Origin: a virus
Reading direction: 5' to 3' (one strand)
DNA: 24,229 bases
Virus record (IMG/VR): IMGVR_UViG_3300026202_000003
Span: 1-24,229 of that record
Below, in pieces: positions 5,181 to 15,826 of the stretch (within the stretch, counting starts at the first letter, position 1; each line of letters starts with the position of its first letter). Below the pieces are notes generated by a model that searched no databases, was not told the origin of the DNA, and was given only the letters and a program-made list of their open reading frames with translations. Made by a program: the position numbers and the translations under genes.

Positions 5181-5343
5181 CCATCAGCAAATGGAACTGA
5201 TTCTAAGTACCCTATTGTCCTGTGATAGAATCAAAGGGAACGGGGCAAAAGACCAAATCAAACGAGTACTAAAAGAATACCATGAACAGTATAGTATTGA
5301 TGGCAAAATGACACCAGATAATTTTAAAGGGGCACAGATATGA
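5173..5343 (+). CDS. Small hypothetical protein (56 aa)
   Basis: I take ATG 5173 (MDNHQQMEL) over the upstream in-frame ATG at 5137, because a GGGGG site lies 8 bases before it and the 8-bp overlap with the preceding stop is typical here. The protein is a short helical polypeptide with one Cys and a C-terminal K-M-T-P-D-N-F segment. Its stop overlaps the start of the Rad52-like gene by 4 bp, so it is likely coexpressed with recombination functions. Function not recognised. Confidence 0.6.
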   Translation: MDNHQQMELILSTLLSCDRIKGNGAKDQIKRVLKEYHEQYSIDGKMTPDNFKGAQI

Positions 5344-6239
5344 GTGAAGAAATAACCACAGCAAAGCAAAGGGAAGGGCTAAAGCAAAGGGAAGGGCTAG
5401 AAAAACTAAGAAAGCCTTTTCCAAAAAACCAAATTGGGAAGCTACCCAAACCCACCAAAAAGCAGACAGAAGAGGCCAAGGGGCCTAAATGGGACCGTAT
5501 CCATTGCCAGGTTTGTAATCAAAAACACCACAAAGATGTGATTCATTTGGATTATGTGGGCCACGCAGCTATAACTGATAGGCTATTAGATGTTGATCCT
5601 GGTTGGGATTGGAGGCCGTTATGTTTTGACAAGGAAACCGGTCTACCACTTTTTGATAAAAATGGCGGCTTATGGATTGAGTTAGAGGTTTTGGGTTTAA
5701 AAAGGCTTGGTTATGGGAACGCTGCAAGCGTGTCTTTTAAAGATGTTGGCAGCAGAGAAAAAGAAGTAATCGGTGATGCTCTTAGAAATGCCGGAATGCG
5801 TTTTGGTATGGCTCTTGATTTATGGCACAAGGGAGAATTACACGTTGATGAAGAACCTGAAAAAACAACAGAGAAAAAGAAAGAAACCACCAAAAACGTA
5901 GTTAAACCAGTAAGGGCTACGCTGAACGCTTCATTGGCAAAGATTAAAGACCCTAAAATTTTCGGGCAGATGGTTGAAAGGTTTGCCAAAAAATATGGCC
6001 CTGGTATTTGGGCTGAGAAAACAGCTCACAAAAACGAAACTTGGAAACATTTATTTGATACTCATGGGGGCAAATTCGATAAGAAAGAACCAAACCCACA
6101 AACCGTATTCGATAGCCTTTTAAAAGACAGAACCGTGGATGGCTTATCTGCTGTTTGTGACCATTATGACAACCACAAAGAATTAAAAAATGAAAAAAAT
6201 AAAAAAGAAATTTCAATTTTATCAACAGAGGTGAATTAA
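5340..6239 (+). CDS. Rad52-like single-strand DNA annealing protein (299 aa)
   Basis: Residues about 50-170 match the phage Rad52/22-type annealing protein pattern: a small Cys/His region (CQVCNQKHH), HLDYVGHAAITDRLLDVDPG, W-D-W-R-P-L, G-L-P-L-F-D-x-x-GGLWIELEV, LGYGN, then EVIGDALRNAGMRFGMALDL. Proteins of this class anneal complementary strands and drive phage recombination and end repair. The C-terminal 120 residues are lysine-rich and variable. An 18-bp tandem duplication near the start yields KQREGL twice. The gene overlaps the upstream gene by 4 bp and abuts a coiled-coil protein, a usual companion in phage recombination operons. Confidence 0.85.
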   Translation: MSEEITTAKQREGLKQREGLEKLRKPFPKNQIGKLPKPTKKQTEEAKGPKWDRIHCQVCNQKHHKDVIHLDYVGHAAITDRLLDVDPGWDWRPLCFDKETGLPLFDKNGGLWIELEVLGLKRLGYGNAASVSFKDVGSREKEVIGDALRNAGMRFGMALDLWHKGELHVDEEPEKTTEKKKETTKNVVKPVRATLNASLAKIKDPKIFGQMVERFAKKYGPGIWAEKTAHKNETWKHLFDTHGGKFDKKEPNPQTVFDSLLKDRTVDGLSAVCDHYDNHKELKNEKNKKEISILSTEVN

Positions 6240-7350: not shown

Positions 7351-7358
7351 TTTTTTAC

Positions 7359-7386
7359 TTGGAGATGGTGTACAATTAATTATATT
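7359..7386 (+). promoter_or_regulatory. Possible promoter of the replication leader
   Basis: TTGGAG (7359-7364) and TATATT (7381-7386), separated by 16 bp, form a plausible sigma70-type promoter just after the NinB-like stop. Transcription from it would begin shortly before the structured leader at 7401. The alternative is read-through from P1. Confidence 0.4.
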
Positions 7387-7400
7387 AAAATAAGCAAAAG

Positions 7401-7499
7401 TAATCGACTTACTCAACTTGCAAAAATTTAGCTCTACCCGGTTCTGATGAATATCAGACGGTTTATTTTAGTCGATTAATCCGGCTTGCCGGGTAGGGC
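7401..7499 (+). ncRNA. Structured leader: predicted pseudoknot with competing hairpin
   Basis: The 160-base gap between genes holds nested and crossing complementarity. TAATCGACT (7401-7409) pairs perfectly with AGTCGATTA (7470-7478). GCTCTACCCGG (7431-7441) pairs over 11 bp, with one G-U, with CCGGGTAGGGC (7489-7499). Because the two helices cross, they form an H-type pseudoknot enclosing a third hairpin, TCTGAT-GAAT-ATCAGA (7443-7458). The 3' arm of the long helix can instead fold locally: ATCCGG, CTTG loop, CCGGGT (7479-7494). The ribosome-binding site TGAGG (7501-7505) follows directly. This is a cis-regulatory RNA candidate; a replication-related DNA element is the alternative. Confidence 0.6.
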
Positions 7500-7510
7500 A
7501 TGAGGTATAA

Positions 7511-7978
7511 ATGGCGAAAGAACTCCCGTATTTCAGATTTTACCCCCAAGAATGGCAAAACGGCGATATTACCCTGGAGTCATTAGAGCAGCAGGGTTTA
7601 TTTATGAATATTTGTGCTTATTACTGGATTTCAGATTGTAATGTAAGATTAAAGACTCTTGAAAAGAGATTTAAGGAAACTGAATCTTTATTTGAATCTG
7701 AAATTTTGCACAAAGATGGTGATTTTCTGATGATCAAATTCTTAGATAAACAATTTGAAGAATTACACGAATATAGAGAAAAAAAGCGTATTGCAGGCAG
7801 AAAAGGGGGTTTAAAGAGGGTAAGCAACACTAAAGAAGTGCTAAAGCATAACTCAACCATAAAAGAAAAGAAAAAAGAAAATGAAAAGAATAGTAGCATA
7901 ACTAAAGCGGAGCTTGATTTACCAACAAAAAAAGATATAGCTGAGTTTAAGGCTCACATGAAAAAGGTCTTATCATGA
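7511..7978 (+). CDS. Replication initiator/DnaT-like N-terminal domain protein (155 aa)
   Basis: The opening ELPYFRFYPQEWQNGDITLE, then EQQGLFMNICAYYWI, matches the winged-helix N-terminal domain shared by DUF1376/DUF4373-type phage replisome organiser proteins, which recruit helicase to the phage origin. A basic linker (about residues 93-130; KKRIAGRKGG, KEKKKENEK) and a short C-terminal helical tail follow. The protein is shorter than typical initiators (200-300 residues), so it may be a minimal form. The start has a TGAGG site immediately after the structured leader. Its 3' end overlaps the HNH gene by 4 bp. Confidence 0.65.
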   Translation: MAKELPYFRFYPQEWQNGDITLESLEQQGLFMNICAYYWISDCNVRLKTLEKRFKETESLFESEILHKDGDFLMIKFLDKQFEELHEYREKKRIAGRKGGLKRVSNTKEVLKHNSTIKEKKKENEKNSSITKAELDLPTKKDIAEFKAHMKKVLS

Positions 7979-8580
7979 GTAATTATTCAGATTTACTCAA
8001 GAATCCTAAATGGCAAAAGAAACGACTTAAAATAATGGAAAGAGATGGTTTTAAATGCCAATACTGCCATAATGGCGATAAAACCTTAAACGTACACCAC
8101 ATAGTTTATTTTCAAGGAAAAGATCCTTGGGAATATGAAAATCGCTTTTTAATCACCTTTTGTGAAGACTGTCATCAGAAAGAACATCAAATGGAAAATG
8201 AGATGGGGAAATTAAATATAAGCCAATATTTAAGAAACCTGGGTATGCCTAATCTTTTTTTAGGAAAATTCTTAAAAGCCATAAAATCAATTAGTGGTAA
8301 TGATAACTACCATGAAATTATACAAAGTATTATTACAGGCCCTAAACCTTTTGTAAATAAGAAAGAAACACTTAGAGTTCACAAAAAACGTAAAAAGTCC
8401 ACCAAAAAAGAAAACGACCTTAAAACCTTTAAGCTTTGCCGTAAATGCAATGGTCAGTTGGTTATTAGAAAACCTAGAGGAAAAATCAAATCAAAACAGA
8501 AATATTACTTTAAATCGTATTTTTATTGTACTGACTGCAAAGCAATGTACATGAGAGAAAGCGAAAAGGTGTTTATATAA
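7975..8580 (+). CDS. HNH endonuclease with C-terminal zinc ribbon (201 aa)
   Basis: The N-terminal half is an HNH nuclease: C-Q-Y-C-H, then LNVHHIVYF, then ENRFLITFCEDCHQKEH, giving the paired CxxC zinc ligands and the HH catalytic motif in the usual order. The region after about residue 130 is very basic. Residues 155-190 add a second CxxC pair (CRKC, CTDC), probably a zinc ribbon for DNA binding. It starts inside the stop of the replication gene, so it is coexpressed. It could be a packaging-type or free-standing homing nuclease; position in the replication operon favours recombination or mobility. Confidence 0.8.
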   Translation: MSNYSDLLKNPKWQKKRLKIMERDGFKCQYCHNGDKTLNVHHIVYFQGKDPWEYENRFLITFCEDCHQKEHQMENEMGKLNISQYLRNLGMPNLFLGKFLKAIKSISGNDNYHEIIQSIITGPKPFVNKKETLRVHKKRKKSTKKENDLKTFKLCRKCNGQLVIRKPRGKIKSKQKYYFKSYFYCTDCKAMYMRESEKVFI

Positions 8581-9916: not shown

Positions 9917-10665
9917 ATAACAATACAGGCGAAAACAATACAGGCGAAAACAATAAAGGGGACAGGAACTCTGGGGACAGGAACTCTGGGTACAGTAACT
10001 CTGGGGACTGGAACTCTGGGAACAGGAACTCTGGGGACAGGAACTCTGGGTACAGGAACTCTGGGGACAGGAACTCTGGGTACAGTAACTCTGGGGACTG
10101 GAACTCTGGGAACAGGAACTCTGGGGACAGTAACTCTGGGCACTGGAACTCTGGGGACAGGAACTCTGGGGACAGGAACTCTGGGTACAGTAACTCTGGG
10201 GACTGGAACTCTGGGCACTGGAACTCTGGGGACTTCAATTCAACAACACCAGATACAATAAGATGCTTTAATAAAGATGTTGATAGGGAGACTTGGGAAC
10301 AGGCAGATAAACCACAGTTCATTTATGATGTAAACCCAAATATATGGGTAGATGAATCAGATATGACAGATGATGAGAAAAAAGAGTTCTCAGGGTTCCA
10401 TGATAGAGGTGGGTATTTAAAAACCATTGAATACAAAGAGGCATGGAAGATTGCATGGGATGAGGCGAGCGAAGAGGATAAAACTCTATTGTCTAAGTTA
10501 CCTAATTTTGATGCAGATGTGTTTGAAGAGATCACTGGAATAAATGTATTTGTGAATGGATTGGATTTCTCTGAATCAGGAAAGGAATCCAACGCAGAAG
10601 AATTTACTGTAGGTGAAATCGAAAAGCTTCTAGGAAAGAAAATAAAAATCATAAAGGAAAAATAA
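9913..10665 (+). CDS. GDxNSG pentapeptide-repeat protein with conserved C-terminal domain (250 aa)
   Basis: After an Asn-rich start (NTGEN twice), residues about 17-106 are 18 perfect-register pentapeptides of type [DYNH]-x-N-S-G, resembling the N-x-G-x-x repeats of Pentapeptide_2 proteins, which form extended beta helices or coils. The C-terminal 140 residues are a separate globular domain with WVDESDMTDDEKKEF, GGYLKTIEYKEA, W-D-E-A-S and LPNFDADVFEEITGI. I recognise that pattern from other phage proteins with the same repeats, but I know no function. It overlaps the upstream gene by 4 bp. Confidence 0.75.
   Translation: MNNNTGENNTGENNKGDRNSGDRNSGYSNSGDWNSGNRNSGDRNSGYRNSGDRNSGYSNSGDWNSGNRNSGDSNSGHWNSGDRNSGDRNSGYSNSGDWNSGHWNSGDFNSTTPDTIRCFNKDVDRETWEQADKPQFIYDVNPNIWVDESDMTDDEKKEFSGFHDRGGYLKTIEYKEAWKIAWDEASEEDKTLLSKLPNFDADVFEEITGINVFVNGLDFSESGKESNAEEFTVGEIEKLLGKKIKIIKEK
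9961..10230 (+). repeat. Tandem 15-bp repeat, 18 units
   Basis: Eighteen 15-base units of the form GACAGGAACTCTGGG, varying only at the first base and at the fourth to sixth bases. The block DR-YS-DW recurs at 9976, 10066 and 10171, indicating higher-order duplication of several units. It lies wholly within the coding frame. Confidence 0.95.
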
Positions 10666-14764: not shown

Positions 14765-15826
14765 ATGAATTATAATTGGAAATTATCAGACGGATACCCA
14801 GAAAAGAATGGGTATAGAGTATTCAGCTGCTTTTCTTGTGGTGGTGGTTCTACAATGGGCTACAAATTAGCCGGGTTTGAGGTAATCGGGAATAATGAGA
14901 TTGATCCAAAAATGAACGAGTGCTATGTGAAAAACCATAACCCCAAATATTCATTCTTAGAGCCTATACAGGACTTTAAGAACAGGGGTGACTTACCAAA
15001 AGAATTGTTTGAACTTGATATTTTGGATGGTTCTCCGCCTTGTAGTAGCTTCTCAATGGCAGGGAATAGAGAAAAGGATTGGGGAAAAGAAAAGAAGTTT
15101 AGAGAAGGGCAATCTGAGCAGATTTTAGACACTCTATTTTTTGACTTTATTGATTTAGCTAAGAAATTACAACCAAAAGTGGTTATTGCTGAAAACGTAA
15201 AAGGGCTGCTCATGGGGGATGCTGTAAACTATGTGAGAAAAATTAACGAAGAATTTGAAAAAGCAGGGTATTATATACAACACCATTTGCTTGATGCTTC
15301 TAAAATGGGCGTTCCACAGAAAAGAGAAAGAGTGTTTTTTATAGCACTTAGAAAGGATTTAGCAGAACCTTTCTTATACCAGAAAACAATGTTTGATATG
15401 GAACCAGAGCTAAAATTAGAATTTAATGAACCCAAAATCCTATTTGGTGAGTTTAAAGATGAGAATGGGCGTATTATGTCTAAGTTCCAAACTGAAATTT
15501 GGGAAAACAGAGAAGAAGGTGATCCAGATTTTTCTTGCACTAATACTCGATTTAGAAATAAGCCAAATACTGGTTTTGGGCAAAATTATCTTTATACAAA
15601 TAAGGTTTGCGGAACTATTACGTCGCATGAAGATTGTTATGTTCTTTTTGATTCTCCTAGATATACAAGCAAAAACGAGGTTTGTAAAATTGGGAGCTAC
15701 CCTTTAGACTATGATTTTAGAGACAAAAAACCTCATTATATGATAGGGATGAGTGTACCCCCACTAATGACAGCAAAGATAGCAGAACAAATCAAAACCC
15801 AATGGTTAGATAAACTTGTACTATAA
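14765..15826 (+). CDS. C5-cytosine DNA methyltransferase (353 aa)
   Basis: All main C5-methylase motifs are present in order: motif I FSCFSCGGGSTMG (residues 20-32), motif IV GSPPCSSFS with catalytic Cys93, motif VI ENV (143-145), motif VIII QKRER (185-189), and motif X SVPPLMTAKIAEQI near the end. The recognition domain lies at about 200-310. It methylates cytosine in phage DNA using SAM. I choose ATG 14765 because it sits exactly at the predicted start of the P3 transcript; the upstream in-frame ATG 14729 is inside the promoter. The mRNA would be leaderless. Confidence 0.9.
   Translation: MNYNWKLSDGYPEKNGYRVFSCFSCGGGSTMGYKLAGFEVIGNNEIDPKMNECYVKNHNPKYSFLEPIQDFKNRGDLPKELFELDILDGSPPCSSFSMAGNREKDWGKEKKFREGQSEQILDTLFFDFIDLAKKLQPKVVIAENVKGLLMGDAVNYVRKINEEFEKAGYYIQHHLLDASKMGVPQKRERVFFIALRKDLAEPFLYQKTMFDMEPELKLEFNEPKILFGEFKDENGRIMSKFQTEIWENREEGDPDFSCTNTRFRNKPNTGFGQNYLYTNKVCGTITSHEDCYVLFDSPRYTSKNEVCKIGSYPLDYDFRDKKPHYMIGMSVPPLMTAKIAEQIKTQWLDKLVL

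Follow-up and report, generated by a model that had tools for sequence, protein, structure and literature searches.

A pair of crossing RNA helices lies just ahead of a replication-initiator-like gene in IMG/VR virus record IMGVR_UViG_3300026202_000003, and judging from sequence comparison this leader belongs to a wide class of elements in Bacteroidetes-type phages. All positions refer to the whole stretch of 24,229 nt analysed from that record, which is called the window below. The RNA structure itself we regard as close to certain, and we consider it probable, though well short of assured, that the element is a promoter-proximal attenuator of phage replication operons, built as a pseudoknot or kissing loop. 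The element looks like a so far undescribed switch that turns viral DNA replication on or off.

Two crossing helices in the leader

The arms of the two helices follow one another in the order P1, P2, P1', P2' and so cross. The features of the leader and its surroundings are as follows.

7358-7361, plus strand: candidate -33 element CTTG, 19 nt upstream of the -7 candidate; an imperfect match
7381-7388, plus strand: candidate -7 element TATATTAA, with 4/6 letters of TAnnTTTG
7394-7421, plus strand: possible P0 hairpin (GCAA 7394-7397 / TTGC 7418-7421) whose loop would contain the 5' strand of P1
7401-7409, plus strand: P1 5' arm TAATCGACT, nine pairs with 7470-7478, three of which are compensated in leader L136
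7431-7441, plus strand: P2 5' arm GCTCTACCCGG, forming 11 pairs with 7489-7499; in L136 two of these are compensated and two more are changed on one side
7443-7458, plus strand: optional P3 hairpin within the P2 loop, seen in the sequence
7470-7478, plus strand: P1 3' arm (P1') AGTCGATTA, from pairing and comparison with L136
7479-7494, plus strand: local hairpin ATCCGG-CTTG-CCGGGT, put forward as a competitor in the first-pass annotation; in the sequence, not kept in L136
7489-7499, plus strand: P2 3' arm (P2') CCGGGTAGGGC, without a U-tract, ending 11 nt upstream of the start codon
7511-7978, plus strand: putatively regulated gene for a replication-initiator-like protein of 155 aa (phrog_29280; DUF1376-like), from profile matches

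P1, read directly from the sequence, consists of nine Watson-Crick pairs; P2 has ten Watson-Crick pairs and one U-G, and an additional U-G is possible at 7442/7488. The P3 hairpin, TCTGAT-GAAT-ATCAGA, has 6 bp. The first-pass annotation, made from the letters of the window, had proposed both crossing helices and this small hairpin, and all of them are present. The crossing pair scores 50, against a mean of 8.7 and a maximum of 44.5 in 1000 dinucleotide shuffles (0/1000 as high), and it ranks first among 1608 segments taken from both strands of the contig. A smaller shuffle run on the window leader gave the same outcome (0/60 reach the observed value), and the nested MFE z-score of the leader is -2.96.

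Compensated divergence

Two near-identical contigs carry an identical leader and so are uninformative on conservation. The closest diverged leader, L136, is the sole basis for the window's own covariation. When the two are aligned both helices are kept, with five doubly compensated pairs, three in P1 and two in P2, so that the compensatory changes by which the first-pass annotation proposed to check its structure were found in both helices. In this comparison 97.5% of cells are paired, against 23-51% with the partner slid; with two sequences the shuffle control is weak, and the result is equalled in 16 of 500 shuffles.

The leaders as a whole were compared element by element rather than through one multiple alignment, and the stronger statistics come from subfamily A. 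Here P1 is doubly changed in 5/7 pairs and remains 100% paired, P2 is doubly changed in 2/13 pairs, and all whole-structure measures but pair types exceed all 500 shuffles. P2 alone is not significant in L133, L168, L190, L213, L281 and L336. Because the divergence is compensated, pairing in RNA is favoured over inverted DNA repeats that serve as protein sites, an explanation that was rejected.

The same comparison bears on the local hairpin at 7479-7494, which the first-pass annotation had cast as the alternative partner in a switch. The hairpin exists in the sequence, with five Watson-Crick pairs and one U-G, but is not conserved in L136, the one homologous leader; since L136 lacks the competitor, the idea that the 11-bp helix alternates with the local CCGG-CTTG-CCGG hairpin is unsupported. 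L146, and apparently also L136, has a different hairpin at the position of P3 (read by eye).

No known RNA family accounts for the leader, as the first-pass annotation had surmised. Rfam release 15 at the gathering threshold returned 0 families in the window and 0 at 20 related loci, and the leader alone at E<=10 gave only two sub-threshold chance matches. The match to RAGATH-30 (13 bits against a threshold of 59.5) was rejected as AT-rich chance. Two ribozymes were rejected on inspection together with Rfam: the hammerhead, whose CUGAUGA is present but falls within the P3 hairpin and comes without GAAA, and an HDV-like fold, whose element order is similar but for which P1 lacks the initial G and the junctions do not fit. 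As regards a ligand riboswitch, no core is common to all leaders; conserved motifs occur only within subfamilies, for example UUAGUAG/CGAA and UGAAGUAGAA/CUACGGAU. A DNA similarity search of the window leader against phages gave chance matches only. No description of the leader RNA was found in the literature searched, coverage of which was partial, and it is apparently undescribed so far. Taken as a whole, the earlier interpretation held for the crossing structure, its compensation and the absence of a known family, and fell short on the local-hairpin switch.

The downstream gene and the likely host

The gene at 7511-7978 matches phrog_29280 (1.4e-21), with weaker matches to primosomal and replication-initiation families, which agrees with its original assignment as replication-initiator-like. 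Its relatives in named phages adjoin a TOPRIM primase/helicase gene. In the structure predicted for the product (mean pLDDT 72), the elements are arranged in a winged-helix-like order, and there is a long helix as well. A PDB fold search with the predicted product gave no significant match; a viral structure library returned DUF1376 proteins, the best named one being the DUF1376 protein of phi19:1 (4.4e-07). Because the hosts of the relatives are Cellulophaga, Flavobacterium and Leeuwenhoekiella, the host of the window phage is likely a member of the Bacteroidetes.

Distribution among phages

Most relatives of the gene have no detectable leader of this kind directly upstream. Where the gap is about 115-170 nt, the order P1, P2, P1', P2' is often seen in unrelated sequence, and leaders of this common layout are mostly without sequence similarity to one another. 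An anchored search, which required a Bacteroidetes -7 box (TAnnTTTG), P1 within 16 nt and then a crossing P2, gave 24 matches with a score of at least 44 over 971 sites, against 1 in shuffles. In a census of 102 distinct initiator genes, a score of at least 40 was reached by 25 upstream regions on the coding strand, by 0 on the minus strand, by 0 downstream regions and by 2 shuffles; at a score of at least 44 the count was 20 upstream against 0/0/0 for minus strand, downstream and shuffled sequence.

Named phages with the leader are phi10:1, phi19:1, phi18:3, Nekkels_1 and morran9-1, and because the carriers include cultured Cellulophaga and Flavobacterium phages the proposals made below are directly testable. 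The presence in Cellulophaga phage phi18:3 extends the element to another phage family. In Nekkels_1, phi19:1, morran9-1 and phi10:1 the leader stands at the start of the operon, ahead of a small gene, where the initiator gene is without a leader of its own. It is also found upstream of a different initiator, the DnaD-like helicase loader (phrog_2514), in L373, L376 and phi18:3; among DnaD-like helicase-loader genes it occurs at 6/28 loci, against 0 on the minus strand. A second copy in one phage (L359:1012) precedes a ParB-like/methyltransferase gene, and the element is therefore not restricted to replication operons. At the two loci checked among relatives of the DnaD-like gene from Vibrio and gut viruses, no leader was found. 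Prophages added little because relatives of the initiator are rare in bacterial genomes (2/395); the DnaD-like query found 0/395.

The reuse of the leader before different initiators bears on the possibility that it is a protein-binding operator under autogenous control, like the leader pseudoknot of T4 gene 32 (PMC3014915). Both are pseudoknots at or near the 5' end of a leader upstream of a phage replication gene, and the predicted product of the window gene is winged-helix-like. The T4 leader is bound by its own product, whereas the phage class described here keeps its RNA when the downstream family changes: leaders of the same P1 type precede unrelated initiator families, and little sequence is conserved across leaders. 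Given this retention across initiators, the common ligand is unlikely to be the product encoded downstream, and we consider autogenous control improbable. A 2010 review could name T4 gene 32 as the sole viral pseudoknot for translational autoregulation (PMC3014915).

Promoter, P0 and U-tract

The Bacteroidetes promoter pattern TTTG/TAnnTTTG has the same spacing as the two window candidates (PMC6847099), and transcription in the window would start at about 7393. In most leaders a TAnnTTTG box starts 12-20 nt upstream of P1; given the published box-to-start spacing (T-12 to G-5; PMC6847099), P1 would lie right at the transcript's 5' terminus in most of them. The ACTTG of the window's -33 region is retained, as a promoter-like stretch, in the diverged relative L201, which also has an 87% identical NinB-like protein; after the NinB-like gene, L201 carries a different long nested inverted repeat, ahead of an unrelated gene. 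On the minus strand of the window, at 7395-7402, a perfect leftward -7 box (TACTTTTG) with TTTTTG upstream of it overlaps P1, and it may be a divergent promoter or a chance occurrence.

Leaders of subfamily B hold the P1 strand in a hairpin loop; the small hairpin, P0, has arms that vary yet pair in 7/7 leaders checked, and the crossing contact there would for this reason be loop-to-loop. P0 as a universal part of the element was rejected, since it is significant only in some leaders. The window has, besides the P0 listed above, a weak alternative (AGTAA/TTACT, 7399-7413, p about 0.23).

The sequence that follows P2' is rich in U, at 53-84% in positions 1-8 and 16-41% in positions 9-15 (32 tails). 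At least 5 of the 8 letters after P2' are T in 43/57 leaders, a set that was compiled by hand and is non-independent, with several members from one subfamily. This enrichment reads as the signature of an intrinsic terminator. The U-tract is absent in about a quarter of the compiled leaders, the window among them; L136, L146, L176, L190 and a few others lack it as well. Because P2 in the window, without a U-tract, ends near the start codon, the output of the element likely differs, acting on transcription in most leaders and on translation in the window. Translation in F. johnsoniae is reduced by base pairing close to the start, and Shine-Dalgarno sequences are absent (PMC6847099). The TGAGG that the first-pass annotation took for a ribosome-binding site is there in the sequence but is a weak cue at best, because mRNAs of Bacteroidetes, the likely host group, are generally without Shine-Dalgarno sequences (PMC6847099).

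What the annotation missed is that the leader appears to belong to a wide class of phage RNAs in which P2 is usually a terminator-like hairpin, and in part of which the pairing seems to be loop-to-loop. Because P2 is usually terminator-like in the class, transcription attenuation was probably the original mode. A knotted 5' end might alternatively be a passive stabiliser that protects the mRNA against decay without acting as a signal. In most leaders the inferred position of P1, right at the 5' terminus, would suit such a role, but the U-tracts after P2' and the placement beside the gene start go unexplained, and we hold this to be very improbable.

Attenuation by a leader peptide was rejected, as mini-ORFs are inconsistent across leaders; no reading frame is common to the leaders, and the frames in the window leader contain stops. 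ATG reading frames of 7-8 codons (MK...) directly follow P1 in L134, L136, L168 and L213, though not in all leaders.

A model for attenuation

In the attenuator that we favour, the first transcribed bases (P1, which in several relatives lies in the P0 loop) would pair with P1' in the loop of the P2 hairpin, and this hairpin would finish just ahead of the operon. In most relatives, P2 and the U-tract would act as an intrinsic terminator that sets the transcription reaching the replication genes. The window and its close relatives have lost the U-tract; here P2 stands 11 nt from the start codon, where it would limit ribosome loading, and control in the window copy would be translational because it has no U-tract. 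Since P1' emerges ahead of P2', P1 pairing can compete with the closing of P2 or knot it, and the contest between the two would be the step under regulation. In trans, leaders transcribed from other genome copies could take part and so provide copy-number feedback, although we think trans action between genome copies unlikely.

Fast-changing P1 and a possible identity tag

Variable columns in subfamily A make up 11/14 of P1, 4/26 of P2 and 19/72 of the remainder (Fisher p about 1e-4). The type of P1 does not follow the initiator: L370 and L371 have initiators identical over 89 aa and different P1 sequences, L371 and L372 share P1 with initiators that are 43% identical, and L373 and L376, ahead of the DnaD-like initiator, have the P1 of L370. 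P1 thus appears to have been reshuffled among different initiators, always with matched changes. With five types only, this variation might resemble a recognition code, or equally a helix whose sequence is free.

If P1 were a code, the leader could be a determinant of specificity in trans, in which a terminated leader RNA or an antisense RNA binds matching loops and shuts the replication operon. This reading would cover immunity or copy control, by analogy with phage P4 CI RNA and plasmid antisense RNAs; among plasmid RNAs, those of IncK1 and IncK2 differ by five nucleotides (PMC10724649). P1 columns that are far more variable than the rest, yet always matching, and a P1 type uncoupled from initiator identity speak for such a code. 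On the other side, P1 sequence may simply be free given pairing among the five types examined, a temperate lifestyle is not known for most of these phages, and antisense -7 boxes (CAAAnnTA, the one promoter type searched) are not enriched (4 against 2.2 expected in 37 leaders). We consider trans specificity possible but rather unlikely. The P1 pair as an RNA-coded identity tag, by which terminated leader RNA silences the replication operon of phages or genome copies with the same tag, is likewise a doubtful proposal. If this holds, the tag would provide copy control and exclude superinfecting phages with no need of a protein repressor, like plasmid incompatibility. With a matched pair that changes fast, it becomes possible to test whether phage identity is RNA-based.

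Relation to known systems

The best reading by analogy is that the attenuator works like the copy-control leaders of plasmids and is a member of no family tested; the comparison with plasmid rep leaders drawn in the first-pass annotation is plausible. Replication initiators would then be under plasmid-style RNA control in phages too, and in a group whose phage gene control is poorly known.

The pT181 repC attenuator (PMC4878617) is likewise an initiator leader with a 5' hairpin and an intrinsic terminator ahead of the gene, and sequence upstream interacts with the terminator region. In pT181, however, the anti-terminator has the 5' arm of the terminator as its pairing partner, and the outcome depends on an antisense RNA (PMC4878617), whereas P1 in the phage leaders pairs with the P2 loop (P1') rather than the P2 arms and no antisense promoter signal, sought as the -7 box CAAAnnTA, was found in these leaders. 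The terminator feature of pT181 is absent in the window, which has no U-tract after 7499, and present in the 43/57 compiled leaders noted above.

In the I-complex plasmids, with their rep leader and RNAI and the repZ pseudoknot of ColIb-P9, a loop close to the 5' terminus pairs with a site immediately upstream of the initiator gene, and few bases distinguish control in close relatives (PMC10724649 and works cited there). The phage leaders share both traits, and the pairing of a 5' loop near the initiator start shows covariation here as well, with P0 weak in the window. Unlike the plasmid leaders they come without an identified antisense RNA, most look transcriptional, and hosts and sequences are other ones; a conserved leader peptide, like the translated one that opens the switch in IncI-type plasmids, is absent, short ATG frames occurring in only some relatives.

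The CI RNA/seqA/seqC leader of phage P4 (PMC4825925) resembles the present class in controlling phage replication genes, in premature termination and in self-complementary stretches of the leader. P4 has a processed RNA and two targets (PMC4825925), whereas the phage leaders have one pair that crosses a terminator-like hairpin; no third complementary copy of the P4/c4 type was noticed beside the single P1/P1' pair.

Neighbouring genes in the window

The initiator-like protein of the window, at 155 aa, is shorter than its relatives (about 205-286 aa), and its C-terminal half looks to be missing. An HNH endonuclease gene begins at the stop codon of the initiator-like gene (window 7511-8580), and among the neighbouring genes read no primase follows the initiator-like gene. 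The single-strand annealing protein encoded at 5340-6239 has, unlike the initiator, only actinobacterial named-phage relatives, chiefly mycobacteriophages (46-49% identity). A C5 cytosine methylase gene at 14819-15364 has 75% DNA identity to its counterpart in Cellulophaga phage phi18:3, a phage that has the leader RNA too. At 9919-10233 lies a 15-bp tandem repeat of about 18 copies that encodes NSG-type pentapeptides. The near-identical contigs L002 and L003 part from the window inside this repeat, from 10041 and 10111, which suggests repeat-length variation or an assembly break.
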